A program made the position numbers and the translations under genes. Shown piece after piece: positions 34,801 through 60,855 of a DNA stretch of 64,000 bases. The notes beneath the pieces are model-generated. The model ran no database searches. It was not told the origin of the DNA and saw only the letters and a program-made list of their open reading frames with translations. Location of the stretch: contig OW203763.1 of assembly GCA_934045905.1 (NCBI GenBank), positions 19,722,948 to 19,786,947 of the forward strand, read 5' to 3'. Numbering within the stretch: position 1 is the first letter of the stretch; each line of letters opens with the position of its first letter. This DNA is from Leuctra nigra (lineage: Eukaryota > Arthropoda > Insecta > Plecoptera > Leuctridae).

Positions 34801-37800
34801 TTTGATAATGTGAAACTTATACCTACTTTTCTACGGTAACTAAAATGAATTGAAAGCCCGTCGTATAAAAATCTGTGTGATACTTAGTATATTATTTTCT
34901 GAATAAAATTGGTTTTTATGTCATTTTGGAAGTTTGGAACATTACTTTAACTTAACTTTGACATTAATATAATTATCGAATGTTTTTTTAGAAGTGACTA
35001 CGAAGAAAGCACAAGGAAATTGGTTGAGTGTTTCTTATTTGTTTAATGATATCCAATTTGTCACTGTTTTATTTCTCACACATAGAAATTCTGTGCATCA
35101 GTGAAGATCATTCAATATGTTCTATGATTGAACTGATTATTTATGTGCCCGAGGCCATTGCAATTGCAAGAAATGTAATTGAAACTGCATGTACCTTCAA
35201 TATATACAGTCTCCGTGTACACCACGCAGTTTGCATCCTTCAGCAACGATATCTGCGAGGAAATTACACATGTACTTACATGACACTGGAGAAATTCAAA
35301 GTGAACAATTAAATTATTAGTTATTACTATTGTGAAAGTGTAATTAGTTTATCAGTTTCACTTCAATTTCAATCTATTTCTGTATAAAAAATATCAGCTT
35401 TCCAACTTTTTCAAAATCTTCAATATAATTTTAACTTTGTAATGATTTTCAATTCAGTCATTTATTAATTGATTATTCTAATCAATCTGCCAGTCTAATA
35501 CTTACTGTCAGACAATGATACCCTATCGAGACGTTTCGGCGCCATGGGTTAGATATCTGAAAACAAATTATTCACACTTTACTTGATGTCGATTTTTTTT
35601 TCAGGAAATACCGACTTCACACAAAATCATCTCTATAGTAATGTTACGTATTTTTAAGAATTTTAATTAGATTCGTAGTACCTATGTTACAAAAAGAAAA
35701 ATATGAATAGCGTGTGTTTTTGATCGCGTAATTGCATTATTTTTCCTTTGCATGATCGAATATTTGTAAAAAGCATGCCACATTATTCAAACTCACTTAT
35801 TTAAATATTGCCACAATACTTACAGTAAGTAATTATTGACTGAGGTTCGTCCTCAAATTGTTAAACATGTTTTTAACTCGAATTAGCGTCTTGAGGATGT
35901 ACCAGAGGTCTTAATGTACCTACAATGTGGCTTTTTATTTAGTTTAGAAAGCTTGAATATTGCGCGCATAAGCTCTTGGTTTTTAATGTGACGACAAAAA
36001 ACACAAAAATCTTTCAAGAGCTGAGCGAATACGTCCAGTTTCCTCTTCCTTGCTAGATTAAAAAAAGTGTATCAAGTAAAGTATAAAGGAAAAGTAGATT
36101 GTGTATATTTATTTTCATATAATTTTGATTGATAATGAAAAGTAGATTTCAAGATTTCTTTTCAATAGGGAAGTTGCATGTTTTATTACAATCTATATCA
36201 AAATAACAACATATTTGTTGATAAAATACTATTTTTACTACCAAAAGTGTACATTTTCATTTAGTACAAACTTAAATATTTATTTACTAGGAAAACGCTA
36301 AGTATAACGCGAGCCTTCATAGGAATTCCGTACCTAACGCATAGAAACATAATACATCCTTATTGAATTGAAATATGATCCACTCAATCAACATTAAAGT
36401 ATCTGTTTTCTATGGAAACTTAAGAATATACACTTTGGTACATAAAGCAAATCAGATCCAGTTGCAGTGGAAAACATTCATTTCGATAGGTACTTCATTT
36501 CTGACAGTTATTAAAACTGTCAATAAGTGCATATTATGTTCTTGACTGATTGTGCTGAAAATGTGTAAAATAAGAGACAATGTCGGTCTTAACCACCATG
36601 CAAAATATGAGTTTGATCAGATTTATCGAAGACCATTTGATAGGTTAAACGGTGGTGCAAACTACAAATCAAGATTACGAAGAAATTAGTATACCGATTT
36701 TGCTGGAAATTAATCTTTTTTGAAAAAATTTGCCAGATTCGTTACTTCGTTTAAAATTTAATGCATAAAACACAGATATAAAAAAGAGATTTGTGACATA
36801 AGTTTTAAGTGGAGACGCTCGCTGTGGTGAATTAATTTTGTTTAACGTCGCACTCTTCTACAACTAGGCTGATGGCTACCTACGGCTTGATTTATTTGAT
36901 GTGACGAAAAGTCGAATCAATGTGTGTAAATATTCATGTATGAACCGATTTCAGTCCACCTTCAATGATTTTATTCCTAAAACAATTGATGTAAGTGATC
37001 TGTCTTTTCTTACTTTTAAATATGTTATTAATAAGCTGTTACAGTGATTTTAATAATGTGGATTGATTATGCACTTTATATTCTCATGTTATTGTTATAT
37101 TTTATCGGTGCTTGTTAATTTTATTTGTTTTGACCTGTACTTTTTATTATATTGCACATGTGGGATATTCCCGTTGACAATAAAGTATTAATAATAATAA
37201 TAATAAGTCTGTGACGAAATTTAAGAATTATTGGCTTTTAATGACATTCTCCATAGTCAGAATTTCGGTTCGAGGTGTTGCGCATATCCGTGCTCGCTCA
37301 TCAACGCGTTTCCCTTTCCTAGTTATGTTAATCAATCTCTAATTCGTAAATTATAATTAAAATCACATCATTTTGCATATTTTATCAATCTTTACTGGCA
37401 TCGATATGAGGCATATTTCCTCTCCATCCCACAAAATGGGATAATTTTCTGTTTCATCTTCACAATTGTTTAAATGTTGGTACCAATGATCATGTCAATC
37501 GGTTGAAGTCCTCGGTAGTATTGTTTTTATTGTTGTTTTTACACATATTTACATTAAGCTTGAACCCCCAGGGAATACTGTGTGAAGCAGTTGCAGTTTC
37601 TGAAGATGTTTGGGGATGATGATAACAATAATTATTTCCATTAGGAACACAAGTCCTCGGTAGTATATTGTTTTATTGATAATTGTACATAGACAGCATA
37701 ATACTTATTTACATAAGTAAACTCTTTACTATGCTATACAATCTATTTTTTTGTGAACATGAGAAACGGAACAAAACAATAACAATGAAAACCAATGAAA

Positions 37801-40800
37801 CACACAACAATGCGTCAGCACTCGCGCGACAGTTCTCTCTCCGATGACCTCGGAACTCATGCCTTCCATGCCGCCATGATGCAATACGCCTCCTCCTGAG
37901 CGCACTGTGCCCCACCAACGTTCCCGAAACCTTCTCGCTCCAGCCCTCCGCACATTAGTACAACATGATACGTATTTAACAAGTAAACTATTTACCATGC
38001 TATTACTTTGTGTCATGAGAACACGGAACAATCCAATCACAAGAAAATCACTGAAAACACATCACGTTGCATCAGCCTCGCGACAATCTGTTCACTAGCT
38101 CACGCTATCCATGCCGCGAAGATGTAATACGCTCCCTCGAACATCGAGGAGCCGGAGGTTGAATCAAAGCAGAACGCTGAATTGGATGAGGATCTGGCGA
38201 AAAGATTCAAGTATGAATGTTTGCGGGTGGCAGGCGCGAACAGGAAAATCAGAAGATTTGATGCTAGGTTGAATTCTGGTTTGGTGGGGGCGATTGATGT
38301 CATACTTCGGAACGCGTTAGCCGAGATAGAGGCAAGTGATTCAGCAGTGCGTGTAAAGAGGGACAGGGCTAAGAAAGCCATATATATAGCAGGTGTGGTA
38401 ATATCACAGGAGGTCGCGAAGAAAAAGAAAAACAGGCAGAAACCGAAGCATATTGTCACGGGTGAGGTCATCGCCAAGCTCAAAGGGCGTATGTTACTGT
38501 CTCAACAACTACGAGAGTGGGCAGGAGGAAGATTGCCTCCGCAGTTAAAACATCATGCGAGGGAACTGAGGAGAAGGAGAATTACTCCTAAGGAATGTAT
38601 TGCATTAACTAGTGATAGAGTCCGTATTTTGGAGGGAACACTAGAACAGCAGAAGAACAATCAGAAGGTGCAGAAGTTGAGACGGAGGTTTAGCGAAAAG
38701 CCGTCAATTCAGATTATACAGGACAGGACAGAGAGGTTGCAGCCCTCATTGGAGAGTGTAGAGGTCTTTTATTCGCGATTCTACAAGGAAGTGGATGGTG
38801 GTGAGAGACGACCTACTCCAAGATTTAACAACTGGATAAGGGCTTTGCAGCAACATAAGGAGAGCACCACGTGTACGCAGACTGGGCCAGAAGAAATTAG
38901 TAAGTTGGTGAACATTTCTCTTCAGTCCGCGGCTTCTTGGAAGGCGCCGGGGGAGGACGGCATCCCGGCAGGGCTGTACAAGGCATTGCCGAGTGGCCGG
39001 GAGTATTTGCGCAAGTTTGTGTGTGGTGTACTGGCTGGTGATTGTATATGTACAGAGAAGGACGTCCGCGGTAGGGTGATATTGCTGCATAAGGGTGGGG
39101 ATTCGAACGATCCCGCGAACTATAGGCCGATCGCCCTGTTGAACACGGACTACAAGATATTAACATCTGTGATTTCAAAGCTTGTTAAGCAGAGCCTACC
39201 GGAGTGGGCCGTGCCAGAAGAACAACTCTCAAGGGAGGGGGTATGGGGGACGGTCCACGGGCTGCTGGTTGACAAGGCGATCACGCGAGTAGCAAAAAAG
39301 AACAGGGGGAAGCACTATTCGGCGTGGGTAGACTTTGCTAAGGCGTACGATACGGTGTCACACTGCCAACTACGGCGCCTCATTCGAGCGCTGCCTGTGA
39401 GCGGGGTAATAACAAATGTGTTAGTGAACTTGACGAGGAGGTGGTCGGTGCGGATTGCAGTGGGCAGGGAACATTCGAGGCCAATATACGTCAAACGTGG
39501 TGTATATCAGGGGGATACGATGAGCCCGTTGCTGTTTGTGCTGATCACGGCCTTCATACTGCACGAGGTCAAGGTAGACAAGGGTGTGAATGTGGCTGCG
39601 AGAGGCCGGCAGTTGGTAATTGCGTACATGGACGACATCAAGCTACATTCACCAACCAGGATGGGAATTGACGCCTTGACTGCATGCGTCCAGGAGTGTG
39701 GGGGTGAGGTCGGGTTGAAGATGAACAAAAGAAAGTGTGGTGTGTATTGTAGAGAGGAAGTGGAAGAGGAAGGTGGGGAAGTTGGAGAGGAGAAGGAGGA
39801 GGAGTCTGCGTTCCTCCCACAGGTACGTGAGGGGTACAGATATCTGGGGATTGTCCAACTGGAACTGGACACCGCTGTCAACATGGAGGCTGCCACTGGA
39901 AGACTGCTGGAAGGGGTTGAAGAGGTGGTGAAGTCCAGGATAGCGCCCTCCCAGAAAATTGAACTCATAAACTCCACCTGTGTTTCGGCGGCAACATATG
40001 TGCTAGGAAATATGTTTTCCCAACTAAAACGTTCGTCGGTGCTGAAGAAATGCAGGGCGATTGACGTGGAGGTTCGCAAGTTGCTGGTGAAGCATAGAAT
40101 AAAGACCTACAGCACTTCGACGGCCAGTGTCTACTTGGCGAGAAACAGCGGCGGCCTGGGCCTAAGATCAGTAGCCGAGGAAGTGGAACTTCAATTTGTC
40201 AGAAGAGGGATATACTTGGAGAGGCACTTGGGGCTGAGCGAGACTCGGAGTAGATACGAGATGCTGGAGAGAGGTGGGTGGAGAAATCCAAAGACCGATT
40301 GTGTATGGCGATTGTGGTTGTGTATGAGTATGGTGTGGTGAGGGACGAGTGGGAAGATGGGATGGAGTTGGGGGTGTATGTGAGAAAGACGGTGGGAAGG
40401 GTCAGGCAACAGCAGCAGGAACGGTGGCTTCGTGTCTGGGGAGGGAACATGGCGTATGGGCGTGTTGTCGAGCGCGAGAGGGGGAACGTAACATTCCCCG
40501 CGTACAGCTCCTGGCATATGGAAGACTGGCGCATCGCGATGTTGCATGCGGCGGCAGAGGACCAAGTGCAGGGTCTTGGGGCCATCCCCACGGAGAGGAA
40601 GATGTGCTCCAGGGGCTGCAAAAAGGAGCTAACTGCTTACCATGTGGCGGTAGCGTGCCTTACGCCGGAGTTTAACCAGCGACACGATAGCGTGGTAAGC
40701 AAGCTGCTGTATGCTATAGTTGAGAAAACGGGCCCTGAAGAGATGAGGAGGAGGTGTCACGGTGGCACGATGGTGGAGGAGTATGTGTGGGGGGACAGGT

Positions 40801-43800
40801 CGGTCAGGATAAGGGCTGGTGTTCCGATAATGGCGAACAACCGTGTTAACCATAATAAACCGGACGTTGTAATTATCCTGTCGAATCCAGATGAGGTGTT
40901 TGTGTTGGAGGTGGCGGTGGCGCATCTGGGAAATATACGTACCCAAGAGAAGATTAAGAGGACTCGCTATGAGGTGAACTCCATGGCGGAGGTCAACAAT
41001 GATAATCACGATCGTGTGCCGCGGGACACGAACATTGTAAGTGAGCTGCGGTCAATGTATCGGTGCCCTGTGGAGCTGGGAGTGTTTGTTGTTGGGGCCT
41101 TCGGGGAGCGGCTGCAGACCGAAGAACTGGGAAGAGCAGCCGAGATCCTCCGGAGGCTGGGGGTCCCGCCATGGAGGTTTGAGAAGTTAATGAAGGATGT
41201 GTGTTATGGCGTGGCAGCCGACACTGCCAAGATCTTAGTGAATAGGTTGGCACGCGAGCGCTGATGTAATGCTATGTGTTTTTATTGATGTCTTGTTATT
41301 TTGATTGTTTCCTGTATCTCATGTCCACAAAACAATATGTTGTAATAGCATGGTAAAGAGTTTTAATTTAAATAAGTATTATGCTATGTATGTACAATGA
41401 TAAATAAAAAAATATACTACCGGGGAATGTGATGGTGGAGCGGGCTAGAAGCGAACACGACGCTAGCGGGAACGAGACACGTGCTGTAGGAGAGTGACGT
41501 CATCTAAACAGCTGATGCCAAGGTTGCAGCGGTAGAGCACAGTTAGCTGCACGATTTGAACATGTGGGATTGAGATTCCAATATACAGTAGCGCATTCTA
41601 ATTGACGTTTATAAATATTGTAAAAAGGAAAAAAATACTTTATTTAAATATGGCATCAAAATTTAGTTATTTTATTTTATAGTAGAACATTCTATTTTTC
41701 AAATGTATGAATTGACTGGACTATACTACCGTCCGTCGAGTGGGACGGACGCGCTGCAAGTTCGGCTCCAGGAAATAACGTGTTATTTACTTGGTGTTTT
41801 CGAAATTGTGGTTGTTAGGTAGTATAGCCACGAACGTGAAACATCCCGATTCAACCTAGTTAGATGGGATATGGCGTTCGGTGTGTGCGTGAGGTCTGGA
41901 ACGAGATAGTTTCGTGAACGTTGGTGGGACACAGTACACTCAGGGGGCGTTTTTACAACATGGCGGCATGGACAGCGTGAGTTGCCAAGAGTGAACCGAC
42001 TGTCGCGAGTGCTGATGCAACGTGATGTTTTCAGTGATTTTCTTGTGATTGGATTGTTCCTTGTTCTCATGACACAAAGTAATAGCATGGTAAATAGTTT
42101 ACTTGTTAAATACGTATCGTGTTGTACTAATGTGCGGAGGGATGGAGCGAGAAGGTTTCGGGAACGTTGGTGGGACACAGTGAACTCAGGGAGCGTATTA
42201 CATCTTCGCGGCATGGATAGCGTGAGCTAGTGAACAGATTGTCGCGAGGCTGATGCAACGTGATGTGTTTTCAGTGATTTTCTTGTGATTGGATTGTTCC
42301 GTGTTCTCATGACACAAAGTAATAGCATGGTAAATAGTTTACTTGTTAAATACGTATCATGTTGTACTAATGTGCGGAGGGCTGGAGCGAGAAGGTTTCA
42401 GGAACGTTGGTGGGGCACAGTGCGCTCAGGAGGAGGCGTATTGCATCATGGCGGCATGGAAGGCATGAGTTCCGAGGTCATCGGAGAGAGAACTGTCGCG
42501 CGAGTGCTAACGCATTGTTGTGTGTTTCATTGGTTTTCATTGTTATTGTTTTGTTCCGTTTCTCATGTTCACAAAAAAAAAAGATTGTATAGCATAGTAA
42601 AGAGTTTACTTATGTAAATAAGTATTATGCTGTCTATGTACAATTATCAATAAAACAATATACTACTATAGTTTCGTGAACGTTGGTGGGACACAGTGCA
42701 CTCAGGGGGCGTTTTTACAACATGGCGGCATGGACAGCGTGAGTTGCCAAGAGTGAACAGACTGTCGCGAGGCTGATGCAACGTGATGTTTTCAGTGATT
42801 TTCTTGTGATTGGATTGTTCCTTGTTCTCATGACACAAAGTAATAGCATGGTAAAGATTTTACTTGTTAAATACGTATCATGTTGTACTAATGTGCGGAG
42901 GGATGGAGCGAGAAGGTTTCGGGAACGTTGGTGGGACACAGTGCACTCAGGGAGCGTATTACATCTTCGCGGCATGGATAGCGTGAGCTAGTGAACAGAT
43001 TGTCGCGAGGCTGATGCAACGTGATGTGTTTTCAGTGATTTTCTTGTGATTGGATTGTTCCGTGTTCTCATGACACAAAGTAATAGCATGGTAAATAGTT
43101 TACTTGTTAAATACGTATCATGTTGTACTAATGTGCGGAGGGATGGAGCGAGAAGGTTTCGGGAACGTTGGTGGGTCACAGTGCACTCAGGGAGCGTATT
43201 ACATCTTCGCGGCATGGATAGCGTGAGCTAGTGAACAGATTGTCGCGAGGCTGATGCAACGTGATGTGTTTTCAGTGATTTTCTTGTGATTGGATTGTTC
43301 CGTGTTCTCATGACACAAAGTAATAGCATGGTAAATAGTTTACTTGTTAAATACGTATCATGTTGTACTAATGTGCGGAGGGCTGGAGCGAGAAGGTTTC
43401 AGGAACGTTGGTGGGGCACAGTGCGCTCAGGAGGAGGCGTATTGCATCATGGCGGCATGGAAGGCATGAGTTCCGAGGTCATCGGAGAGAGAACTGTCGC
43501 GCGAGTGCTGACGCATTGTTGTGTGTTTCATTGGTTTTCATTGTTATTGTTTTGTTCCGTTTCTCATGTTCACAAAAAAATAGATTGTATAGCATAGTAA
43601 AGAGTTTACTTATGTAAATAAGTATTATGCTGTTTATGTACAATTATCAATAAAACAATATACTACTATACTACCGTCCGTCGAGTGGGACGGACGCGCT
43701 GCAAGTTCGGCTCCAGGAAATAACGTGTTATTTACTTGGTGTTTTCGAAATTGTGGTTGTTAGGTAGTATAGCCACGAACGTAAAACATCCCGATTCAAC

Positions 43801-46800
43801 CTAGTTAGGTGGGATATGGCGTTCGGTGTGTGCGTGAGGTCTGGAACGAGATAGTTTCGTGAACGTTGGTGGGACACAGTGCACTCAGGGGGCGTTTTTA
43901 CAACATGGCGGCATGGACAGCGTGAGTTGCCAAGAGTGAACAGACTGTCGCGAGGCTGATGCAACGTGATGTTTTCAGTGATTTTCTTGTGATTGGATTG
44001 TTCCTTGTTCTCATGACACAAAGTAATAGCATGGTAAAGATTTTACTTGTTAAATACGTATCATGTTGTACTAATGTGCGGAGGGCTGGAGCGAGAAGGT
44101 TTCGGGAACGTTGGTGGGACACAGTGCACTCAGGGAGCGTATTACATCTTCGCGGCATGGATAGCGTGAGCTAGTGAACAGATTGTCGCGAGGCTGATGC
44201 AACGTGATGTGTTTTCAGTGATTTTCTTGTGATTGGATTGTTCCGTGTTCTCATGACACAAAGTAATAGCATGGTAAAGATTTTACTTGTTAAATACGTA
44301 TCATGTTGTACTAATGTGCGGAGGGCTGGAGCGAGAAGGTTTCGGGAACGTTGGTGGGACACAGTGCACTCAGGGAGCGTATTACATCTTCGCGGCATGG
44401 ATAGCGTGAGCTAGTGAACAGATTGTCGCGAGGCTGATGCAACGTGATGTTTTCAGTGATTTTCTTGTGATTGGATTGTTCCGTGTTCTCATGACACAAA
44501 GTAATAGCATGGTAAATAGTTTACTTGTTAAATACGTATCATGTTGTACTAATGTGCGGAGGACTGGAGCGAGAAGGTTTCGGGAACGTTGGTGGGGCAC
44601 AGTGCGCTCAGGAGGAGGCGTATTGCATCATGGCGGCATGGAAGGCATGAGTTCCGAGGTCATCGGAGAGAGAACTGTCGCGCGAGTGCTGACGCATTGT
44701 TGTGTGTTTCATTGGTTTTCATTGTTATTGTTTTGTTCCGTTTCTCATGTTCACAAAAAAATAGATTGTATAGCATAGTAAAGAGTTTACTTATGTAAAT
44801 AAGTATTATGCTGTCTATGTACAATTATCAATAAAACAATATACTGCCGAGGACTGTGATGGTGGAGCGGGCTAGAAGCGAACACGACGCTAGCGGGAAC
44901 GAGACACGTGCTGTAGGAGAGTGACGTCATCTAAACAGCTGATGCCAAGGTTGCAGCGGTAGAGCACAGTTAGCTGCACGATTTGAACATGTGGGATTGA
45001 GATTCCAATATACAGTAGCGCATTCTAATTGACGTTTATAAATATTGTAAAAAGGAAAAAAATACTTTATTTAAATATGGCATCAAAATTTAGTTATTTT
45101 ATTTTATAGTAGAACATTCTATTTTTCAAATGTATGAATTGACTGGACTATACTACCGTCCGTCGAGTGGGACGGACGCGCTGCAAGTTCGGCTCCAGGA
45201 AATAACGTGTTATTTACTTGGTGTTTTCGAAATTGTGGTTGTTAGGTAGTATAGCCACGAACGTGAAACATCCCGATTCAACCTAGTTAGGTGGGATATG
45301 GCGTTCGGTGTGTGCGTGAGGTCTGGAACGAGATAGTTTCGTGAACGTTGGTGGGACACAGTGCACTCAGGGGGCGTTTTTACAACATGGCGGCATGGAC
45401 AGCGTGAGTTGCCAAGAGTGAACCGACTGTCGCGAGTGCTGATGCAACGTGATGTTTTCAGTGATTGGATTGTGATTGGATTGTTCCTTGTTCTCATGAC
45501 ACAAAGTAATAGCATGGTAAAGATTTTACTTGTTAAATACGTATCATGTTGTACTAATGTGCGGAGGGCTGGAGCGAGAAGGTTTCGGGAACGTTGGTGG
45601 GACACAGTGCACTCAGGGAGCATATTACATCATCGCGGCATGGATAGTGTGAGCTAGTGAACAGACTGCCGCGAGGCTGATGCAACGTGATGTGTTTTCA
45701 GTGATTTTCTTGTGATTGGATTGTTCCTTGTTCTCATGACACAAAGTAATAGCATGGTAAAGATTTTACTTGTTAAATACGTATCGTGTTGTACTAATGT
45801 GCGGAGGGCTGGAGCGAGAAGGTTTCGGGAACGTTGGTGGGACACAGTGCACTCAGGGAGCGTATTACATCTTCGCGGCATGGATAGCGTGAGCTAGTGA
45901 ACAGATTGTCGCGAGGCTGATGCAACGTGATGTTTTCAGTGATTTTCTTGTGATTGGATTGTTCCGTGTTCTCATGACACAAAGTAATAGCATGGTAAAT
46001 AGTTTACTTGTTAAATACGTATCATGTTGTACTAATGTGCGGAGGACTGGAGCGAGAAGGTTTCGGGAACGTTGGTGGGGCACAGTGAACTCAGGAGGAG
46101 GCGTATTGCATCATGGCGGCATGGAAGGCATGAGTTCCGAGGTCATCGGAGAGAGAACTGTCGCGCGAGTGCTGACGCATTGTTGTGTGTTTCATTGGTT
46201 TTCATTGTTATTGTTTTGTTCCGTTTCTCATGTTCACAAAAAAATAGATTGTATAGCATAGTAAAGAGTTTACTTATGTAAATAAGTATTATGCTGTCTA
46301 TGTACAATTATCAATAAAACAATATACTACCGAGGACTTGTGTTCTTGATGGAAATAATTATTGTTATCATCATCCCCAAACATCTTCAGAAACTGCAAC
46401 TGCTTCACACAGTATTCCCTGGGGGTTCAAGCTTAATGTAAATATGTGTAAAAACAACAATAAAAACAATACTTACGAGGACTTCAACCGATTTACCGAT
46501 CAAAACTTCGCATGGTCATTGGTACCAAGTACCAACATTTAAGGTATTTTTTTGCCAATTTTCAGTAAATAATATAACATTTAAATTTAGTGGACATTTT
46601 GGCGGGAAACTGTCCAGTGATATCATATTTTATTATAACCATGCCATCATCATTGTTGGTTGACAAAAATGACATCACTCGATAGGAATACCATTTTCCC
46701 GCCAAAATGTCCACTGAATTTAAATTTTACATTTATGAATGAAAATTTAAAATATTTATTGTGAAAAAAGTCTGTTTTACCAACAAATATGTTTCTATTT

Positions 46801-48956: not shown

Positions 48957-51900
48957 ATACAACTAAGAAGTAGTAGTATTTAGACATAAAGTAGTAGTAC
49001 TTTATGTAAAGTAGTAGACATACTAAAAAGTATGCCACACCTGACGACACCCCCCTTCCACAAAAAACACAAAATTCATATTTTCACTATCACGCTTGTC
49101 CGCCTCCCCCCCCCCCCCACCTCCCCTGTCACAGATTGTCACAGTATAACAGACTCCCCCTCCCCCCCTGAGGCGTGACATAGTGTACTTTATGAACAGC
49201 CCCAAAGACGTAGTTAAAGAGTGTTGTAGGTGTTACTGTTGGAGAGGGGTTTGTTTGACTTATAATATTTTTTTAGCTGGTTTCAGACCGTCATAGCATA
49301 GACCATAAAGCCGATTTCACATAAAGCGCGTTTCGCGTTTTGCGTTTTCGCGTTTTGTCTTTTTTTATAACGCCTAGAAGAGGCCATCGAAAACAGAATG
49401 TTAATATAAATTTATTGTTCTTGTTAGTAACAATTTGGGAGTTATTAGATATTATTAGATGGAATAATATGCACAGGTAAGCAATTATTAACATTATAGT
49501 CTTATTTTATACTTGACGCAGTCGCACGTGATTAGCTGCTAGGTCGTGACGTAGGGGTTTTCACCACGCGCGGTACTGAAAAAATCTCCCTACAATCGAG
49601 ATAAGGCTGCATAAAAATAAAACGCATGTGGCAATGTTTTCGGTGGTTTTGATCTGTTTTGATTGGTTAACCCAACGGCTGGTGTGTTGGATACCTCGGT
49701 TCTCGTTAGATCACCGAGGTTAAGCAACATTGAGCGCAGTCAGCGATTGGATGGGTGACCATTCAACTCTGCCTTGCCAGGTTGCTGCCGTTGGGCCAGA
49801 GAGACTGGGGTGTTTGGGGGTTAGTGTGACGACCTCCCTCCACCTGTTATCAGTCTCTCGACGGCGCGGGTTGTGGAGGCTCGTGCTGTGAATGTTACAC
49901 CGTCCTTCGGAAGGGACGTTAAGCCGTTGGTCCCCTTGGTATCTTTCGTCAGGAGTAGGCTACATGCCGGTACCGGGTTTCCTCTCCTCCCTTCTCTATA
50001 TTACATTCTCACTAGTGGAGCCTGGCTCTGTTGAGAATATAGACTTAATAATAATAATAATAAAAAAAAGCGAAACGCAAAACGCGAAACGCGCTTTATG
50101 TGAAACCGGCTAAACCGGCTTAAGGAGCTATAATATAGATTTAACCTCCATGTCATAGACGTATTAAAACTACCAACGTTGCTATTAAATTAGTTACTAA
50201 ATTAGTTATTAAATTAGTACAGTATTTTCTCTGCCAGCGTATTAGGCCACGCTTGGCAAAATCGGTCAAAACCCCTATTTTTTACCATCCCTTCTATTGT
50301 ATTCGGATGAGAGCTATCTGGATTTCCCTGACCGACCTTCCCCAATCCACCATCCTGAGGGAAGTACAAGATAGTGCAATAACACGCTTGCAGTGAAAAC
50401 TACTATTTGCGGTACCGAATTTAGATACTTTGAAACTCTTATCTGGGTGTTTTATTTGATCAATTAGCATGGTTTGATACCGATGCAATAAAAATTGCGA
50501 AGTACTTATAAATCAAAATATATTCTGTTTGAAAAGTGCCCGAAGAAACATAAGTACCCATTACAGTGATGTGGTACATGTCATACCAGGTGTGAGGAAT
50601 AAGTGTGCTGTTACAAGGGGTCTGGGGGCTTTGTCCCCTGGCCTCTAGTTTGCCTCGCATAGCAATTTTTTAATTTTGGATAGGTACAAATGAATCGAAT
50701 GGGCTTGTTCACGCAAAGCTCAGCATAGATGGCGCCACTATGTTACGTACTTTAATCCGACTTAAGGCCGAGATGGGTAACAAAATGACGTCATTTCCGG
50801 CTTTGATTTCCGGTACAAATAATTATGGCACAGAGTGTTTACATTATTAAAAATGACCCAAAAATTAACAGAAAAAACAAAAAAAAAACTCAAATGTACA
50901 TAGTACAAAGATGTAGCCTGAAATCGTATTTTGTTTTCATGTGAAAACTATTTACTGGGCAGAGATTAGAACGCGGCAAGATGACGAAAATTTGAAAATA
51001 TGGAATTTATTTTGGGTCAATGATGACATTTCGTTTTACAAAGATATTATGCACGTAGGACACTGTAATTTACATTTTTAAATGTATTTGAGATTACAAC
51101 AGACTACCAAAGACTATAAATACATAAATTGGTCATTTAAACTCTTTAAAACTCATTTTAGTTACTACCAAAGATGTTTCTCAACCGCTGGCGCCATCCC
51201 ACGGACATTTTGGTTACTAAGAAAATTTTTACTAATCTCGGCCCAACGAAGCTGCCCAAGCTAATCCGATGCTAGCGATCCTGGTAAGAGCAAATGGCAG
51301 TGAACAAGCCCATTGAAGCTATCGTACGGTAGGTATCATTTTCAAAGAAATTTAAAATGCAAATTATATGTAATATTCTTGTGGAAACTTTAGACATCAT
51401 TCGTAACTATTTGTTTTATGATAAAATCCCCATTGGTCCCGCAGGGAATTTCTTGCATTTTTAGAAAGGAGAATCGAATTTGGAGCGCTCATCAGTGTGT
51501 TGTGTCTAATATCCGTCCGTTCGATCGGGTAGCTCAGTTGGTAGAGCTCTCGCCCGGCAAGTGAGAGGTCCCTGGTTCGAGCCCCGGTTCGGTCGGATAT
51601 TTTTCATGACACATGCCTTCATTAACATCCTGACTCCATGGAAGTTTTCCACAGAAACTTACGTTCTCAGCTTTGGTATCCTTTTCAAAGAAATTTAATA
51701 TGTTCTTGTGGAAACTTTTGACAAATGCAATGTAATCTGTAACTGTTTGGTTTATATTGATAGAATCCCCATTTGCGCCACAGAGAGATTTTTTAATTTT
51801 TTGTAAAAGATAATCGATTTTGAATCGATTTTGAAAATCTTTTGAGAAAAATAATACGTGACATGCAATATTTGTAAGGAAAATGTAGGCAAATACAGTG

Positions 51901-54900
51901 TGCAGGTTACCTACAGTAATTCAGTCTAGATTTCTAGTGTCTAGATTTTGAGATATTGTAGTTATAAATTCCTATTTTTAACATGTAGTCTTATCTAGGC
52001 CATTAAAATCATTACGATTTCCATGCTATTTTTGAGTTTTGAATTTTACTGAGGTTTAACGTTTTTTCAAAAAACTGATTTCTAGATAGATAGTTTGACA
52101 TTCTATTAGGAAAAAAATTGAAAACAATACCAACGTGTGCTATTTTAAAAGTTATCAACCAAAAACTAAATGATTTCCCTAAACCTCATGTGTAGTGTTT
52201 TGTTCATTCTCGGAAGGCAATAAATTGAAACCTCGCTATAAGACAGTATATGATCCTTTTAAACTTAAATAGTTGAAATGTAGGAAGGAAAACGTTTTTT
52301 GAACTTGTAAAATCAAGAAAAAATATTTTTGTATATGTATATCATGATGGAGCCGCCTTAATGTGTAATTATTACGTTGTAGTACCTATACATATATTCA
52401 TGAGGGTGGTCAAGTTGGAAAAATGAGTCATTATCTCATTGGATTATACCTACACTCTTTTCAATTAGTATTGCACAGAGAAAAATATGAGAACTCAATC
52501 TCATAATGGAGCACGGTCACAACTCATTAGTCATTTGCATTATTACATCTTATTTTGCACAATTTGTGTATATCTGGGGGTGTTATCTGTTAGCGTCAAG
52601 GTGTTATATGTTATCATATCCTTTCGGAAGGATGTGAAGATAGAATTTAAACCAGACAGGATACTGCGGTCACACAATTAATTATAATTACTACAATGCA
52701 GATTTAGATTAAAATGGGTTCATTTTTCAAATCAGAGATACGAAAGGACCAAAGGAAATACATTTCGGTATCTCAAACTCAAGCATCTTGCTGATTACCA
52801 ACATTAATTCGGCAACAAAAATCTTAGCTCCCCGTGATTATGTGAAATTGGTTTAGAAAAAAAGTGTCCTCTATAAAGTGCGGCATACATACATTTAAAC
52901 ATAGTGCTTGAACAGAGAGGACGTGTATTCGATTGCTCCGCAAACCGGATCGTGAGCATGTCTACGTGTGGTGAATGTGCGTTGACATTAGCTGACGGGG
53001 AGTTTGTTGTGTGTGCGGGTTGCAACAAAAGCTTGCATTTTGGGAAGTGCGCGGGTTTGCAGAGAGCTTCGTATTTGTCAAAATCGCTGGACTCTAAAGC
53101 ATCGTGGATCTGTGCAAAGTGTAAGAAAGAAAAGAAGTCTGGCGGCTCTACGCCGATTGACCCTGTCCAGTCATTCGCCTTCGGAGAGGTGGACTTGCGA
53201 AAGATTTTGGAGGAATTCCGCGTAGAAATGCGCGAGAGTTTCAAACTTTTAGGCGAAGATTTGTCTACGTTTAAAAACCAGATTGGATCAGAGATCAGCG
53301 ACATAAAGCAGAGTGTTGTTGCGTTGCAAAAAGAGAGTGAGGAGAAGGACAAAGTGATTGAAGGTCTTTCTGCTCAGCTTAACTTGTTGGACCAATACAA
53401 TAGGAATCGGAATTTCGAGTTGGTAAATATTGAGGAGCTAGAAGGTGAAAATATTGACAATCTTGTTGTTACGATTGCGGGTAAATTAGACATCGGCTTG
53501 GAGGTCAGTGAAATTGAGGCAGCTCATCGCCTCCCTTCGCGAGATAAAACCCGTCCACCCGTCATCATCGTGCAACTTGCCAGTCGGAAGAAGAGAGACC
53601 CGTTCCTGACGAAACGACGAGCATTCTCCAACTTGTCCAGCAACGACATCACGGGGGAGAAAGGTCAACGCGGAAGAACGCGAGTATACACCAACGAGAA
53701 TCTCAATCCCTTTTATAAGCAGCTTTTTTGGAAATCTAAATTAGCGGCCAAAGATAAAGGGTTTAAATTCGTCTGGTTCAGCAGGAATAAGGTTCTAGTT
53801 AAAAAAAAAACGACACTTCACGTGAAGTCATAACCATTAAATCGTTCGCGGATCTAAATAAGTTTGTAGATAAGGTAGTAGTTAATTCTGAAAATTCTGA
53901 TACTGAGAATTCTGAGGAAGCCCATGATTAATGCTGATGATGATGATTGTGATGATGATTACCTTACACAGATTATAACGGATGACTTAGATAAGTGGGT
54001 TGATAAGCGTAATAAGTTTAAAATCTTGCATTTGAATGTTAGGTCTCTGAATAAAAATTGGAATGAGCTCAATTTAATATTATGCAATGTTCTTGGAAAG
54101 TTTCATGTTTTGGTGTTAACGGAAGTGGCGTTAGATGATGAAACAAATACAGAATATTATTAATTGAACGGATATAATTCATTTTGGTACATAGGAAAAG
54201 GTAGACGAGGAGGAGGGGTGGCAATTTTTGTAATTGAGTCGATGAGGTTTTTAGAAACAATAAAGAAATCGCAATGCTTTGAAAATGTTAGTGGTGTTTT
54301 GAGTGGCGATGCAACTGAAAAAATGTTCTTAATCGCCATGTATAGGCCACCCTCAACCAACAAATCTGATTTTATTAGTGAATTGGAGGAAACCTTATCA
54401 AACTGTTCATGTAATTCTGCTATTTTAATTGGTGACATAAATTTAAATTTGTTAGACATTGATGATAATTTTGTTCAAGATTATGACAGTATTTTGGCAG
54501 TAAATGGGTTCCGTAAATGTATTGAAGGTGTAACCCGTGAGGAGTTCAAAGAAAGTTCATTCACTAAATCATGTATAGATCACATTTATATCCGTTCAAA
54601 TATTAAAGAAATAGATTCAGTAATTTACACATCTAAAGTATCAGACCATTATGTAATAGGAGCGAGTTTTGAATTTGAGGTTCAGGGAAAACAAAGTGTT
54701 ATTAAATGTAGTAATTTAATTTACAATGAAAAAGCATTAAAAGTGAAGTTAAATGAAATAGATTGGTATGATGTAGGTATTGGTGAGACGGATTGTAATG
54801 TGTTGTATAACAAAATTGTTGGAAAATTTGAAGAATGTTATGCTAGTTGTGTGCTTAATTGTTCGTATAAAGGTGTTAAAAAGAAAGCTAGAAAGGAGTG

Positions 54901-57510
54901 GATGCCTTCTGACTTACTTGTGAAAATTCATCAGCGAGATTTATTGTTTAAACGGTTAAAATATTGTAAGAATACTTTGAGATCTACTCTTAATACGGAA
55001 TATAAAAAATTAAGAAATGAAGTGGTGGATGACATAGAGAGGGCTAAAGTATCATTTTATAGGAAACTGATAGAAAACTCCAGGGGCAATGTTAAGGAGT
55101 CGTGGCAAGTGATAAATGAAATCATTGGAAAGCAAAAGAAAATGTCTGTTGATGATGTTATTTTCAAGTATTTAGGGAAGGTTCATTCAAATGAAGTTAT
55201 CTCTCATGATTTTGTTAATACGTTCATAAATGAAGTTGAAAATGTCAAGCATGACTGTCATTTGCGAATTAGCAATTGTGAAGAAAATAATGAGTTGCAG
55301 TCCATGTATTTGCGGCCTATTAGTCCACCTGTAGTAAATTCTATTATTTGTGGAATGAATGTAAACAAGCAACCGGGAATTGACGGGATAAGAATGAAGG
55401 ATTTGGTATTAGTTTCAGAAAAAATAAGTCCGGTTTTGAGTAATTTAATGAATTTATCTTTTAGTAATGGAGTAATGCCTCAAGGGTTAAAAGTGTCAGT
55501 CGTTCGTCCAGTTTTTAAGAAGGGAAATCATTTAGATTATAAAAATTACAGACCTATTGCAATTTTACCTGCAATTGAAAAAGTAATGGAGCGCTATGTT
55601 GAGGAAAAGTTATCTAAATATCTTCGAGATTATAATATAATTAATCCTGCGCAATTTGGCTTTCAGAAGGGCAAAGGCACTGCTGACCTCTTATTGCTAT
55701 TCTCAGATTTCATTAATACGAAACTTAATAATAATATGCATGTGTTATTATCTAACTTTGATTTGATTGATTCATTGGTTCATTGATTGGTTCATTGATT
55801 TTACAAAGGCCTTCGATACCCTGAATCATAATACGCTTATAGACGCTTTGGAAAAAGTTGGGATTAGAGGGAGTTTGTTAAGATGGTTCATGAGTTATTT
55901 GGAAGAAAGGCACATTGTAGTTAAAATTGATAATTCGTATAGTATGAAAAATAAGTATGTCACCGGTGTACCGCAAGGTTCTATCTTGGGGCCAATTCTC
56001 TATCTTATATAATATGTCAACAATATTTTCAACAGTATTTTGATGTGTAAAACTTTCATGTATGCGGATGACACAGTGTTGATTGCCGTACATAAAACAT
56101 TAGAAATGGCGGAACATTATTTGCAAAACGATTTTAATAATATTTTGAGAGTGACTCACGATAGAAATTTAGTAATTAATTCCGCTAAAACGAAAATAAT
56201 TCATGTGGCTTTGCCTTCAAATAGAAATAGAAATTTTCCAGTCAATATAACGTTCCATTCTTTTGATTGTTTGCATACGAGTAGATTAGAAAATGAATGT
56301 ACAAGCTGTGCTGAAAAGATTGAGGTAGTTCCTAATCATGTATACTTAGGTGTTGTTATTGATAATAAGTTTTCATGGAGACCTCACATAGATAGATTGT
56401 CAAAGAAATTGTGCTCGTGATTTTGGAGAATATATAATTTGAAAGATATCCTTCCTTTTTACGTATTAAAATCTGTATATTTTGCTTTAGTGGAATCAAT
56501 TATGTCCTATGGAATATTGGCGTGGGGAAATGCAACTGATACACATTTAAATCGTATAGAAAAATTACAGAATAAAATTATTAAGAGCATTACTCCATTT
56601 ACTATAAAGACGGAATGTAACTTTGAAGCCGAACGATATTATGAACATGTCAATATTCTTCCTTTGAAGGCACTTCGTAAATACAGATTAATTCTAAGAA
56701 ATTATTTTGAGGATAAAGTTTATGTGCGAAGAAATCGATTCACTAGGTTAGAAATTCAAAATCTTATGGAGGTTCCTCTATTTAATAATAAACATGGAAA
56801 GAGGATGCTTTCATATGAAATTCCCAAAATTTTTAATAGTATGCCTTTAAATCTAAAACAATTAGAAAAATATAATGAAATTAAAATAAATATTAAGAAA
56901 TGGTTGTTGTCTTAAAATCACTGAATTGACATGTTTGTGATATTTTTGGTACGTTAGGCAGTTTTTCAATAAATTATTATGGTTATATAATATAAATTAT
57001 CATCTTTGAGTCAGTATATTTTTGTTTTTTGTTCTTGTCATCCGTCAATGCTGTTCGTTTGTTGCAATCGAAATGCAAGTTATTTTCTGTTTAGTTATTA
57101 TGTTTATTACTTAATTTGATTACTTCCACATTCAAGCCATTTTATGGCTTTGTGGACCTGAGTGTTTAATTTTTGTAAAGTGTATTTATCCTGTGTATTT
57201 GTAACAATAAAAAAAAAAAAAAAAAAAATCACGGAATACCCAAACCAATATTTGCCGACGTTTCAGTAAATTTCATAAAATGTCTAATAAAATTGAAGTG
57301 AAAGATATTACGTACCATTGTCCGTCTCATTGAAGATGGATTCACAGTCATCTGAGCTGTAAGTGATCGCTGTCCAACCCTTAGCGAAGTCTGTGCGAAG
57401 AATGACTTTGATCTCGGCGTTGTCGTAATGCTGATCGTCTTCTTTCGTCAATTGCACATTCCAACACATCTCAGGTGCTTTTGGCATATGAAGCATCAAA
57501 ACAAACTCAT
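28669..57510 (-). CDS. IL-17-receptor-like protein with SEFIR domain (5' end missing)
   Basis: Eight minus-strand coding exons, in transcript order: 57316-57510, 47544-47610, 47087-47234, 35506-35556, 34454-34562, 33286-33455, 32340-32602 and 28669-28822. Phases agree at every junction if the membrane exon uses an acceptor at 34563-34564. The extracellular part has several cysteines (EMCWNVQL, DDCESIF, CECEL) and N-x-S/T sites. One membrane segment (PYIVMAAAISSMCVAALFFG) is followed by the SEFIR domain: KIKILLIYSRDSEEFVKLV, FDPFDES, then SPHVKVIFIASEGA and YRRIFLVG. The C-terminal tail ends QRWLVIKP. Known role of the family: cell-surface receptor whose SEFIR domain recruits Act1/CIKS-type adaptors. 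About 385 codons are visible. Signal peptide and first exons were not found; they may lie in 57.5-64 kb or beyond the window. The introns are very long and full of mobile DNA; outside the elements listed they show nothing I can name. Confidence 0.85.
29302..29869. mobile_element. hAT-type non-autonomous element with 8-bp target duplication
   Basis: CAGGGCCGGATTTAGG and, inverted, CAGGGCCGGTTTTAGG, flanked by the perfect duplication gtccacac (29294-29301, 29870-29877). The interior differs from the copies at 10288 and 19589 and is rich in ggggcgcc-type sequence. Confidence 0.9.
30394..30417. repeat. Perfect 24-bp palindrome
   Basis: aacgaactttt and its exact inverse meet without a spacer. No function is evident. 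Confidence 0.8.
30636..30855 (+). repeat. Direct duplication, copy 1 (with poly-C run)
   Basis: About 220 bp beginning tcatttggatgatatttgca and ending gaacggttttcattggtat, with a C run of about 22 at 30710-30731. It is duplicated in the same orientation at 31460-31682. Confidence 0.8.
31460..31682 (+). repeat. Direct duplication, copy 2
   Basis: Second copy of the 30636-30855 segment, diverged in the middle part and with a shorter C run. It lies in the last intron of the receptor gene. Confidence 0.8.
32340..32602 (-). CDS. IL-17R-like, second SEFIR exon
   Basis: Starts phase 0 at VFDPFDESQNETISRNSELW after acceptor ttttcag and ends phase 2 at GTC GG before gtaatt. It contains the conserved hydrophobic strand KVIFIASEGA. 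Confidence 0.88.
32815..33268. repeat. Degenerate GC-rich insertion bordered by short tandem repeats
   Basis: Three copies of catgtatgacgc occur at 32815-32850. Two copies of a 31-bp unit (gacgtatttgattgtccagt) occur at about 33206-33268, and the same gacgtatttgatta begins at 32848. The GC-rich interval between (32880-33200) has no recognisable coding content and may be a decayed insertion. Confidence 0.4.
33286..33455 (-). CDS. IL-17R-like, first SEFIR exon
   Basis: Phase 1 start (G|GT) and phase 0 end. It encodes the KIKILLIYSRD strand and following helix typical of SEFIR/TIR-like folds. The donor is ATGGAG|gtgagt. Confidence 0.88.
33630..34150 (-). mobile_element. tRNA-derived repeat split by a nested MITE
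   Basis: The outer ends match the 61.6 kb repeat: left aggaagggatgtgcgttgtg, right acattagacacaacgcactg. The tRNA-like core is interrupted in its T-arm region by a MITE of about 390 bp (33688-34077). The MITE's own inverted ends, gcgaatatttttctggcaaa and gcgagaatttttctggcaaa, continue to cgtaaatggg. The part with D and anticodon arms remains at 34078-34134. Confidence 0.75.
33688..34077. mobile_element. MITE nested in the tRNA-derived repeat
   Basis: About 35-bp inverted ends with two or three mismatches and an AT-rich non-coding interior. The flanks ttccggg and ttcccgc suggest a short target duplication. Confidence 0.7.
34155..34350 (-). mobile_element. tRNA-derived SINE, second family
   Basis: Minus-strand B-box-like GGTTCGATTCCC, body cttcctgactgaggaattcc and a distal part related to 23066-23255. 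It abuts the composite at 33630-34150. Confidence 0.6.
34454..34562 (-). CDS. IL-17R-like, membrane-segment exon
   Basis: Encodes RPAMKLVRTQLPYIVMAAAI and the rest of a membrane helix, ending FKHR and G in phase 1. The better-looking acceptor ggtcag (exon start 34578) is out of phase with the upstream exon. The acceptors gagcag|CGG (used here) or ctggag|CAG keep the frame. The start is therefore tentative; the donor is firm. Confidence 0.65.
35506..35556 (-). CDS. IL-17R-like, 51-nt extracellular exon
   Basis: Acceptor gttttcag and donor ACA|gtaagt bracket 17 codons, ISNPWRRNVSIGYHCLT. Only this frame is open and it matches the phase-0 end of the upstream exon. Confidence 0.6.
36285..36665 (+). 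repeat. Diverged fragment of the 13549-14874 transposon
   Basis: From tactaggaaaacgct through aattgaaatatgatccac and gtgtaaaataagagacaatg it follows the 13.6-14.2 kb element at an estimated three-quarters identity by eye. The terminal ends are missing. Confidence 0.65.
36930..37205 (+). repeat. LINE 3' end with (TAA)n tail
   Basis: The segment ends gttgacaataaagtattaat followed by about five TAA/AAT repeats, as in 3' ends of Jockey/CR1-like elements. No coding part is recognisable. Assignment is tentative. Confidence 0.4.
37471..38137 (-). repeat. Left inverted arm of the composite
   Basis: Reverse complement of 45855-46543 with few differences. It contains the outer flank unit (37511-37668), one block end and part of a second 240-bp unit. 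It stops at 38137/38138, where the retroelement frame begins. Confidence 0.88.
38138..41264 (+). pseudogene. R2/R4/Dong-type LINE reading frame: reverse transcriptase plus restriction-like endonuclease
   Basis: The first frame is open from 38128 to 40341, with no N-terminal ATG at the junction, so it is 5'-truncated. A highly basic region precedes the RT. RT motifs: NYRPIALLNTDYK, WVDFAKAYDTVSH (39325-39360), GVYQGDTMSPLLF and YMDD (39625-39636). The second frame (-1 relative, from about 40278 to the TGA at 41262-41264) has a zinc knuckle (C-x3-C-x7-H-x4-C, around CSRGC...HVAVAC) and a PD-(D/E)xK-like nuclease core KPDVV...FVLEVAV (from 40857). This order is that of RLE-type LINEs. The two frames overlap by about 60 nt; a single-base indel near 40280-40340 best explains the break. 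Codon composition is much more GC-rich than that of host genes nearby. Confidence 0.85.
41420..42669 (+). repeat. Block I: header plus three 240-bp units
   Basis: Header part 1 (41420-41732) begins with gatggtggagcgggctagaa. Header part 2 starts at about 41738 (cgtccgtcgagtgggacgg). Units are marked by gaacgttggtggg at 41916, 42162 and 42402. It closes with atcaataaaacaatatactac. The open frames in this block are by-products of the repeats. Confidence 0.85.
42670..43662 (+). repeat. Block II: four 240-bp units without header
   Basis: Begins abruptly with gtttcgtgaacgttggtggg directly after block I. Unit marks are at 42678, 42923, 43163 and 43403. It closes with the same AATAAA...ATACTAC tail. 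Confidence 0.85.
43663..44849 (+). repeat. Block III: short header plus four units
   Basis: Starts with header part 2 only (tatactaccgtccgtcgagt). Unit marks are at 43861, 44106, 44346 and 44584. It closes at ATACTGCCGAGGAC. Confidence 0.85.
44850..46328 (+). repeat. Block IV: full header plus four units
   Basis: The header (44850-45330) is nearly identical to 41420-41890. Unit marks are at 45343, 45589, 45829 and 46067. It closes at atatactaccgaggac. The last roughly 470 bp are the inner part of the right inverted arm. Confidence 0.85.
45855..46543 (+). repeat. Right inverted arm of the composite
   Basis: Inverse of 37471-38137. Its outer 200 bp (46330-46543) include a further unit ending aacaataaaaacaatactta followed by cgaggacttcaacc, then sequence ending ggtaccaa...caacattta. 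Confidence 0.88.
46577..46729. repeat. Small hairpin MITE
   Basis: Arms gtggacattttggcggga (46590s) and tcccgccaaaatgtccac (about 46697-46714) are exact inverses with AT-rich continuation. The 153-bp segment lies just outside the composite. Confidence 0.7.
47087..47234 (-). CDS. IL-17R-like, extracellular exon
   Basis: Starts with one base completing an AGA codon and ends phase 0 (ACC AAT|gtgagt). It encodes KELEFDISRNLSSSTELLVN and onward to VQYRWTN, with two N-x-S/T sites and one cysteine. Confidence 0.78.
47544..47610 (-). CDS. IL-17R-like, short cysteine-containing exon
   Basis: 67 nt between acceptor tctttcag and donor CGAG|gtaaca. It joins in phase on both sides. It encodes TTSCECELLRKSDSFFKATS. 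Confidence 0.72.
47885..47997. repeat. Imperfect hairpin
   Basis: ctcctcaccagttgatgc and atatatcaactgatgagg face each other around repeated atgtacattttt motifs. Probably a small MITE remnant. Confidence 0.45.
48832..49203. mobile_element. MITE with GGGGCTGTTCATAAAGTA-type ends and poly-C tracts
   Basis: ggagctgttcataaagta at the left and inverted ggggctgttcataaagta at the right. The interior carries a C run of about 30 (48924-48954) and several shorter ones. Just left of it (48797-48823) is a trimmed end of the tRNA-derived repeat family (gatatgaagggatgtgcg). Confidence 0.7.
49310..50110. mobile_element. MITE with about 40-bp inverted ends, holding a nested 5S-derived SINE
   Basis: gccgatttcacataaagcgc...gtttcgcgttttgcg at the left and its inverse at the right (50070-50110), each bordered by TAAA (49306-49309, 50111-50114). 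About half of the interior is the SINE at 49671-50066. Confidence 0.75.
49671..50066 (+). mobile_element. 5S-rRNA-derived SINE, full-length
   Basis: The first 126 nt (49671-49796) follow 5S rRNA: terminal helix cccaacggc...gccgttggg, loop region gttctcgttagatcaccgag, promoter A-box region gttaagcaacattgagcgc and C-box tggatgggtgacc. An unrelated body of about 250 nt follows (including cttcggaagggacgttaagc), then a (TAA)n/A-rich tail. This layout, with an internal pol III type 1 promoter, is that of SINE3-class elements. The short open frame at 49892 is incidental. A 5'-truncated copy lies at 18641-18890. Confidence 0.85.
50698..51314. mobile_element. MITE with AATGGGCTTGTTCAC ends
   Basis: aatgggcttgttcacgcaaa at the left and inverted aatgggcttgttcactgcca at the right. 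The 617-bp interior has no coding content. The same type of ends bounds 58034-58251. Confidence 0.72.
51332..51477 (+). repeat. Direct repeat, copy 1
   Basis: ggtatcattttcaaagaaat...gataaaatccccattg(g) recurs in the same order at 51674-51815. The two copies bracket the tRNA-derived element. Confidence 0.65.
51523..51594 (+). repeat. tRNA-derived repeat core (tRNA-like, 72 nt)
   Basis: Folds as a cloverleaf: acceptor GATCGGG/TTCGGTC with three wobble pairs, D-arm GCTC/GAGC, and an anticodon arm CTCGC/GTGAG with loop CCGGCAA. The T-arm has one mismatch. C at position 33 instead of U, and copies at 61585-61656 and 34078-34134 sharing flanks, argue for a tRNA-derived repeat rather than a functional tRNA gene. 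Confidence 0.65.
51674..51815 (+). repeat. Direct repeat, copy 2
   Basis: Second copy of 51332-51477 (ggtatccttttcaaagaaat...tagaatccccatttg). Confidence 0.65.
52958..53833 (+). CDS. LINE ORF1 with PHD-type zinc finger, 291 aa
   Basis: ATG at 52958 is the first in a frame open from 52904. Residues 4-55 form a C4HC3 finger (CGEC, CAGC, H..KC, CAKC). A predicted coiled coil (about 75-150, SFKLLGEDLSTFKNQIGSE and onward) follows, then a domain with VVTIAGKLDIG and EIEAAHRLPS, typical of ORF1 proteins of CR1-like elements that bind RNA. Intact, unlike ORF2. Confidence 0.8.
   Translation: MSTCGECALTLADGEFVVCAGCNKSLHFGKCAGLQRASYLSKSLDSKASWICAKCKKEKKSGGSTPIDPVQSFAFGEVDLRKILEEFRVEMRESFKLLGEDLSTFKNQIGSEISDIKQSVVALQKESEEKDKVIEGLSAQLNLLDQYNRNRNFELVNIEELEGENIDNLVVTIAGKLDIGLEVSEIEAAHRLPSRDKTRPPVIIVQLASRKKRDPFLTKRRAFSNLSSNDITGEKGQRGRTRVYTNENLNPFYKQLFWKSKLAAKDKGFKFVWFSRNKVLVKKKTTLHVKS
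53924..56915 (+). pseudogene. LINE ORF2: AP-endonuclease plus reverse transcriptase, broken
   Basis: The endonuclease begins FKILHLNVRSLNKNWNEL and contains GDINLNLL and SCIDHIYI...SDHYVI. RT motifs are NYRPIAILPAIEKVMER, FTKAFDTLNH, GVPQGSILGP and FMYADDTVL. Lesions: an in-frame TAA at 54161, a frame change near 55760-55800 caused by a short ttcattgattgg tandem expansion, a TAA at 56010 and a TGA (probable CGA decay) at 56418. The C-terminal part to the stop at 56913 is well preserved. Confidence 0.85.
57316..57510 (-). CDS. IL-17R-like, most upstream exon found
   Basis: 195 nt, phase 1 at both ends, between acceptor aatttcag and donor AATG|gtacgt. It encodes EFVLMLHMPKAPEMCWNVQL to DDCESIFNETDN. 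The missing upstream exon must end with one base of a GAT-type codon. Confidence 0.78.
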
Positions 57511-60690: not shown

Positions 60691-60855
60691 ACTTAAAGCT
60701 ATTCTTCTTGGATAATTATTTTAATCTTATATACCAAACGCAACTTTTCTAAGTATCCAAATCGGCATAGGCGTATTTTTTTAAAGAAATAAGTTCTTGC
60801 ACGGACACAAGCTGTGCTACAAGCTGTATGAATAAACTAACAAAAGAAGTGATAT

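Follow-up and report, generated by a model that had tools for sequence, protein, structure and literature searches.

Is an inverted 9-kb block with a retrotransposon inside it a new kind of mobile element, or a chromosomal locus that has come to look like one? The question is raised by positions 37471–46543 of a 64,000-nucleotide stretch of the stonefly Leuctra nigra (contig OW203763.1; hereafter the window), where the structure of the composite (arms, frames and blocks) was read from the assembly sequence. The original prediction had described near-identical inverted arms, a reverse transcriptase (RT) and restriction-like endonuclease (RLE) frame and ordered tandem blocks. All of these were recovered, the arms aligning over 644 columns at 98.4% identity (37494–38137 and 45855–46496). 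It had offered two origins, a site-specific long interspersed nuclear element (LINE) that accumulated head to tail with short derivatives in a locus that was then inverted, or LINE capture by a fold-back element. The first has proved largely right but lacked the target, which is tRNA-Asp genes. The inverted block is probably not a mobile element of a new kind; it has the appearance of rearranged, mirror-image tRNA-Asp remnants struck repeatedly by a retrotransposon that inserts in tRNA-Asp and tRNA-Gly genes, and it is best read as inverted tRNA loci and not as one mobile unit. We consider it very likely that a rearranged tRNA-Asp locus was invaded by a site-specific RLE-type LINE together with N, a derivative of this LINE without an open reading frame (ORF). 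An apparently novel inverted composite hence becomes the readable history of a tRNA-gene-targeting LINE of which an uninterrupted copy exists, and it illustrates how the look of a fold-back element can arise from inverted tRNA loci together with a site-specific LINE.

tRNA-Asp and tRNA-Gly genes as targets

The host genome (536 Mb in 144 contigs, the one with the window labelled C13) was searched with the arm, which gave at least 39 matches, and 15 stretches were fetched to cover the match places outside the window (fetched stretches carry L numbers). Two exact tail patterns gave 17 tails at 13 non-overlapping loci outside the window (L024 and L029–L040), a count that leaves out degenerate tails such as the upper of two stacked tails in L034. 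A tRNA-Asp 5' end comes next after ten of the 17, a tRNA-Gly 5' end after four, another N after one and neither after two; all 14 tails that adjoin a tRNA are antisense to it. On the upstream side of an insert, tRNA-Asp(GTC) or tRNA-Gly(GCC) stands in reverse complement, as do the first bases of the tRNA on the downstream side. Such tRNA sequence stands on both sides at 12 of 16 insertion places (L024, L039, two in L040, the N of L029, L030, L031, L032, L033, L034, L037 and L038), with the 3' tRNA part at most 140 bp upstream (32 bp from the match start in L037, 140 bp in L038) and almost the entire tRNA upstream of the insert in L024 and L030. At two other places, a 62-bp fragment in L040 and an old LINE in L029, it is present on the 3' side only. 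When the element was removed and its flanks were joined, ARAGORN called a joint-spanning tRNA-Asp in 4 of 15 cases (the N of L027, L032, L033 and the LINE on contig C4) and a tRNA wholly upstream in two (L024, L030). An exact pattern also found 12 intact tRNA-Asp targets, and all ten that were fetched are tRNA-Asp(GTC) by ARAGORN. Six of the intact targets form a 2.09-kb tandem at C13:17497052–17507531.

At the tRNA-Gly junctions 13 tRNA nucleotides are kept downstream, which places the insertion near nucleotide 13/14, and the tRNA-Asp junctions fit 11–14 kept nucleotides. We take this point to be the RNA polymerase III (Pol III) A box of the tRNA gene, and presume an A-box role for AGTGG, which is present in both tRNA-Asp and tRNA-Gly genes. 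By target-primed reverse transcription, LINE and N would insert antisense within tRNA-Asp genes, at the D-arm region, so that the first tRNA bases (about 11–14 nt, judged from the junctions) and the 5' flank come to lie downstream of the insert; the position of insertion is observed at the other loci, and the mechanism is suggested by analogy with the R2 family. N tails in tRNA-Asp and tRNA-Gly genes are 96–99% identical to those of the window. Since the family occurs in both kinds of gene, its protein may read a feature common to them. Tentatively, and with more doubt than confidence, we propose that both genes are used by a single RLE LINE/N family of recent divergence, that its protein may recognize the D-arm/A-box or the Pol III machinery and not a fixed DNA word, that its cuts may drive inverted duplication of tRNA loci, and that N may stem from read-through of head-to-tail copies.

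Make-up of the composite

From left to right, the composite consists of the following parts (E1 denotes a 309-bp flank block).

37471..37508: outer tip on the left, 5'-flanking sequence of a tRNA-Asp 5' end; the right-end mirror copy is similar to a dispersed repeat
37509..37524 (+): tRNA-Asp 5' end, tRNA nt 1–16, 94%; the remainder of the gene is absent
37517..37549 (-): LINE tail from a second subfamily; over 30 bp the mirror copy is 100% identical to the tail of a LINE inserted in a tRNA-Gly (L037)
37550..37653: 5'-flanking sequence of a second tRNA-Asp; the mirror copy matches the flank that follows tRNA-Asp-inserted copies in L039 (96%) and L024 (90%)
37654..37670 (+): second tRNA-Asp 5' end, tRNA nt 1–17, 94%
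37660..38137 (-): left N, a 5'-truncated copy
38138..41420 (+): LINE copy, 5'-truncated, with one frameshift; 99.4% identical to the full-length copy at C13:18.44 Mb
38128..40341 (+): frame of the reverse transcriptase, its open part starting 10 bp ahead of the junction
40254..41264 (+): restriction-like endonuclease frame
41421..41729: altered tRNA-Asp 5' end and 5' flank E1; E1 also lies at an intact tRNA-Asp on contig C7 (L043)
41730..42666 (+): N1, with full 5' end and without one 240-bp unit
42667..43666 (+): N2, 5'-truncated, adjoining the N1 3' end
43667..44847 (+): TATACTAC and N3, whose 5' end CGTCCG is at 43675
44848..45156: tRNA-Asp 5' end and E1, second copy, which differs from the first in its first 8 bases only
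45157..46330 (+): N4, a full-length N of 1174 bp
46331..46440: tRNA-Asp 5' end (reverse complement) and 5' flank, mirror of 37550–37653
46441..46476 (+): second-subfamily LINE tail, mirroring 37517–37549
46477..46543: outermost tRNA-Asp 5' end (reverse complement) and right tip

Eight tails are readable in the window (the LINE, N1–N4, the second-subfamily tail at 46476, the left-arm N and, in reverse, the left-arm second-subfamily tail), six of which run into a tRNA-Asp 5' end (CGAGGA, once CGGGGA) and two into another copy. With up to three changes allowed, the 15-mer TACTACCGAGGACTT occurs six times in the 64 kb, always at a tail junction (mean 1.05 in 20 shuffles). The chain LINE–flank–N1–N2–N3–flank–N4 on the right and the single truncated N on the left are seen in the sequence, and would have arisen by insertions at mirror-image tRNA-Asp 5' ends.

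LINE-type insertion yields copies that are variably truncated at the 5' end and alike at the 3' end. The common 3' end and differing 5' truncation points of N2, the left N and the LINE fit this pattern, and they speak against growth of the array by unequal crossing-over or satellite-like amplification in place of repeated insertion, as do single copies with truncations of their own in tRNA genes on other contigs. At the other places among the arm matches listed, LINE and N are mostly single and in separate tRNA genes, the exceptions being an N–N tandem in L031 and the two stacked tails in L034. Amplification does find backing in the number of 240-bp units within N, which differs between copies, and in the E1 copies, which are identical save for the first 8 bases and have the N junction in common, so that at least one local duplication is likely. 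As the source of the array as a whole we regard it as rather unlikely.

The blocks between the copies are tRNA-Asp 5' flanks. E1 is carried by the intact gene on C7 (99% over 151 bp, 97% over 145 bp), where it is split by an insert resembling a hAT-like miniature inverted-repeat transposable element (MITE), with 524 bp between the matches and an 8-bp duplication, GTGGGATT (L043, 1521–2340). Both window copies have a footprint-like scar at the point of the C7 MITE. E1 may have reached C13 by 3' transduction or by DNA duplication. A 146-bp block combines a tRNA-Asp 5' flank (96% in L039, 90% in L024) with a 36-bp tail of the second LINE subfamily. The ideas that the 309-bp and 146-bp blocks are mobile units, or that E1 is part of N, were ruled out by their identity as flanks, and a tRNA-derived short interspersed nuclear element (SINE) in E1 was dropped for want of Rfam or ARAGORN support.

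N is built from the untranslated regions (UTRs) of the LINE. N4 begins with the 5' UTR (about nt 10–260, 78%), alternates 3' UTR pieces (about 3904–4051, 72–73%) with 5' UTR pieces (158–259, 74–76%) in its middle, and ends with the entire 3' UTR (74%). The alternation suggests a head-to-tail multimer that was copied as one RNA. No ORF of 150 codons was found in N4, and N would borrow the LINE protein. Two RNA features were considered and rejected: a covarying 3' UTR fold, with double-sided changes in 4 of 51 pairs (LINE against five near-identical N tails), too few for the purpose, and 5'-terminal ribozymes or known RNAs, given that three Rfam matches with E values up to 5 all lie within the RT frame and far below gathering scores.

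Origin of the inverted arms

Both arms have the same order of tip, tRNA-Asp 5' end, second-subfamily tail, flank, tRNA-Asp 5' end and N. Because mirror-image tRNA-Asp remnants with the same 5' flanks and N insertions make up both ends, the arms consist of duplicated tRNA flanks and copies of one N family, rather than being the terminal repeats that an element would carry. The shared order is best explained if a tRNA-Asp locus underwent inverted duplication long ago. This older event would have involved a locus that already bore the second-subfamily tail; later insertions and a local duplication of a flank–N block would have followed, and loss of the tRNA 3' halves may have brought two 5'-truncated copies head to head at 38137/38138.

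A more recent inverted duplication, or an assembly palindrome, would make the left arm a copy of the right end. The arms, including flank and second-subfamily tail, are indeed 98.4% identical, and at column 212 the left N has a state in common with N3 and N4 against N1 and N2; yet it stands five columns from the terminal N4 and two from N2 (differences that gene conversion could blur), is without the 2-bp deletion and the base common to N3 and N4, and is accompanied by a tip that differs from its counterpart by 25 gap columns of 70. A parallel is found in L032, where an 874-bp inverted repeat of 97.9% identity (3005–3875 and 5218–6089) has its inner ends inside a tRNA-Asp at the LINE insertion point, with an N at one of the two. 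Smaller cases are an 86-bp inverted repeat around a tRNA-Gly in L030 and an inverted 68-bp piece of flank in L039. Overall, we hold a recent origin of the left arm to be improbable. Judged by sequence, the N parts of the arms are probably separate insertions, because the left N is closer to N2 than to N4.

The tips carry the inversion out to 37471/46543, with a score unmatched in 2,000 shuffles and in 5,000 stretches drawn outside the region (0 in each), and both end at TTTAA; the TTAA/TA palindrome is the sole feature at the tips that resembles a target duplication. This could be read as a DNA transposon or fold-back element: the tips would be its terminal inverted repeats, accompanied by a TTAA duplication, and would serve as the target of the LINE. 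A possible second instance is the outward-facing pair of an N fragment and an N copy on C4 (L040). The two are separated by about 3 kb and each runs into a tRNA-Asp 5' end with a similar flank behind it, though this flank is not that of the window. Moreover, tRNA-Asp is the target at ten other element ends, no transposase family was found in the two composite frames tested, and the outer tip resembles a dispersed repeat (71–79% in four loci, L029, L030, L031 and L034) that on the right side runs past the tip. The terminal-inverted-repeat reading was dropped once the other copies in the genome had been examined, and we now consider a transposon or fold-back origin exceedingly unlikely. The fold-back alternative of the original prediction is likewise not supported: the full order of the window recurs at no other place among the arm matches listed (at least 39), nor does the pair with the window flank, and the outward pair on C4 is a partial parallel to the recurrence that the prediction had proposed to look for.

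Several observations weigh against an origin in a rearranged tRNA-Asp locus. No tRNA-Asp sequence past nucleotide 19 was found in the composite, a loss that this origin does not explain and that sets the composite apart from 12 of the 16 other places. Neither side carries tRNA at 2 of the 16 places (L035, L036), and 9 of the 15 joined flanks gave no ARAGORN tRNA. The outer tip is known beside a tRNA-Asp 5' end from the window alone, and the derivation of E1 from a C7-like locus is unexplained by a purely local history.

Just right of the composite lies a short MITE-like inverted repeat of 86% identity (46557–46747). Elsewhere, the window holds another LINE (52877–56915), of apurinic/apyrimidinic endonuclease (APE) type by weak Pfam matches and with PHD and Baculo_FP matches in its first ORF; a 5S rRNA-like match (49671–49796) and tRNA-Ala(GGC) matches (51522–51596, 61583–61657), possibly SINE heads or genes; a tandem repeat of 118 bp (60122–60691, 4.8 copies, 93% matches); and an ORF of major facilitator superfamily type on the reverse strand (2441–4828), with nearest named relatives in katydid, termite, cockroach and cricket, then damselflies, dragonflies and stick insects.

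The LINE and its place among known systems

A full-length copy of the LINE lies in a tRNA-Asp gene 1.3 Mb from the window (L039, C13:18.44 Mb). It has a single ORF of 1232 aa and is 99.4% identical over 3283 bp to the window LINE, which is without the 5' part and has one frameshift, both frame segments being stop-free up to the natural end. RVT_1 matches with E values of 1e-27 in the window frame and 5.3e-26 in the full-length copy, and the C-terminus holds a restriction-like endonuclease with a CCHC-like knuckle. RT domain, C-terminal endonuclease, single ORF and target specificity together identify an RLE-type LINE. L035 and L036 contain 99% LINE copies that end in A-runs outside tRNA genes, one of which spans the entire window copy and the 5' UTR. 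In the N-terminal region, Pfam gave neither a Myb nor a zinc-finger match for the full-length copy, and Myb matches below the curated cut-off in four of seven relatives (P0003–P0006); two three-helix domains are predicted, with weak homeodomain/Myb-like Foldseek matches (best E 0.97).

Three patterns and one profile scan found nothing in viral contigs; phages gave none. Three metagenome-assembled genome (MAG) contigs labelled as cyanobacterium or Mucilaginibacter (L001, L002, L003) carry eukaryotic large-subunit rDNA with RLE LINEs inside, distant relatives of the window LINE; the eukaryotic rDNA points to contamination of these MAGs.

In an RT tree whose named LINE references were two R2 fragments, the window LINE falls in a clade of 11 (with P0001 and insect and nematode proteins; support 1.0). 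Both R2 fragments lie outside it and the target is not 28S rDNA, so neither RT grouping nor target places the family in the R2 clade (PDB 9nl3, 9nl2, 8gh6). A literature search found no insect family specific for tRNA-Asp or tRNA-Gly, a weak negative in that it was made before the tRNA target was known. Passages of PMC4640811 describe NeSL-related RLE LINEs in tRNA genes, namely NeSL-1_TV (tRNA-Pro), LIN15_SM (tRNA-Arg) and LIN25_SM (tRNA-Glu). The window family resembles these in its restriction-like endonuclease and tRNA-gene insertion, but differs in its Asp and Gly targets, its insect host and an N-terminus with two predicted three-helix domains and no Pfam zinc-finger match. R4/Dong elements, according to passages of PMC7998251, have an N-terminal Myb-like domain and insert in rDNA or microsatellites. 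Common to both are RT and RLE, and an N-terminal Myb/SANT-like region without zinc finger may be a further shared feature, the Pfam Myb matches here lying below the cut-off and in relatives only. The window family, by contrast, sits in tRNA-Asp/Gly genes.

The Xenopus element Tx1L reportedly inserts in the Tx1D composite; this analogy, raised by the inverted tips, was dropped, since both endonuclease type and target differ. In passages of PMC4640811 the Tx1 clade endonuclease is of APE type, and 'transposons' are among the LINE targets. Tetris, as portrayed in passages of PMC4079207, is a foldback element with long inverted arms and tandem units of about 220–240 bp. Long inverted arms with units of this size are present in the window too, but here the units are pieces of LINE UTRs and the arms hold tRNA-Asp 5' ends. 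Site-specific LINE proteins are said to be under trial as gene-insertion tools, for which a useful natural comparison is offered by an R2-like enzyme that targets tRNA genes and has a small partner without an ORF. RLE LINEs that target tRNA genes are already known, and the window family is a further member of this group, at a locus resembling a fold-back element.

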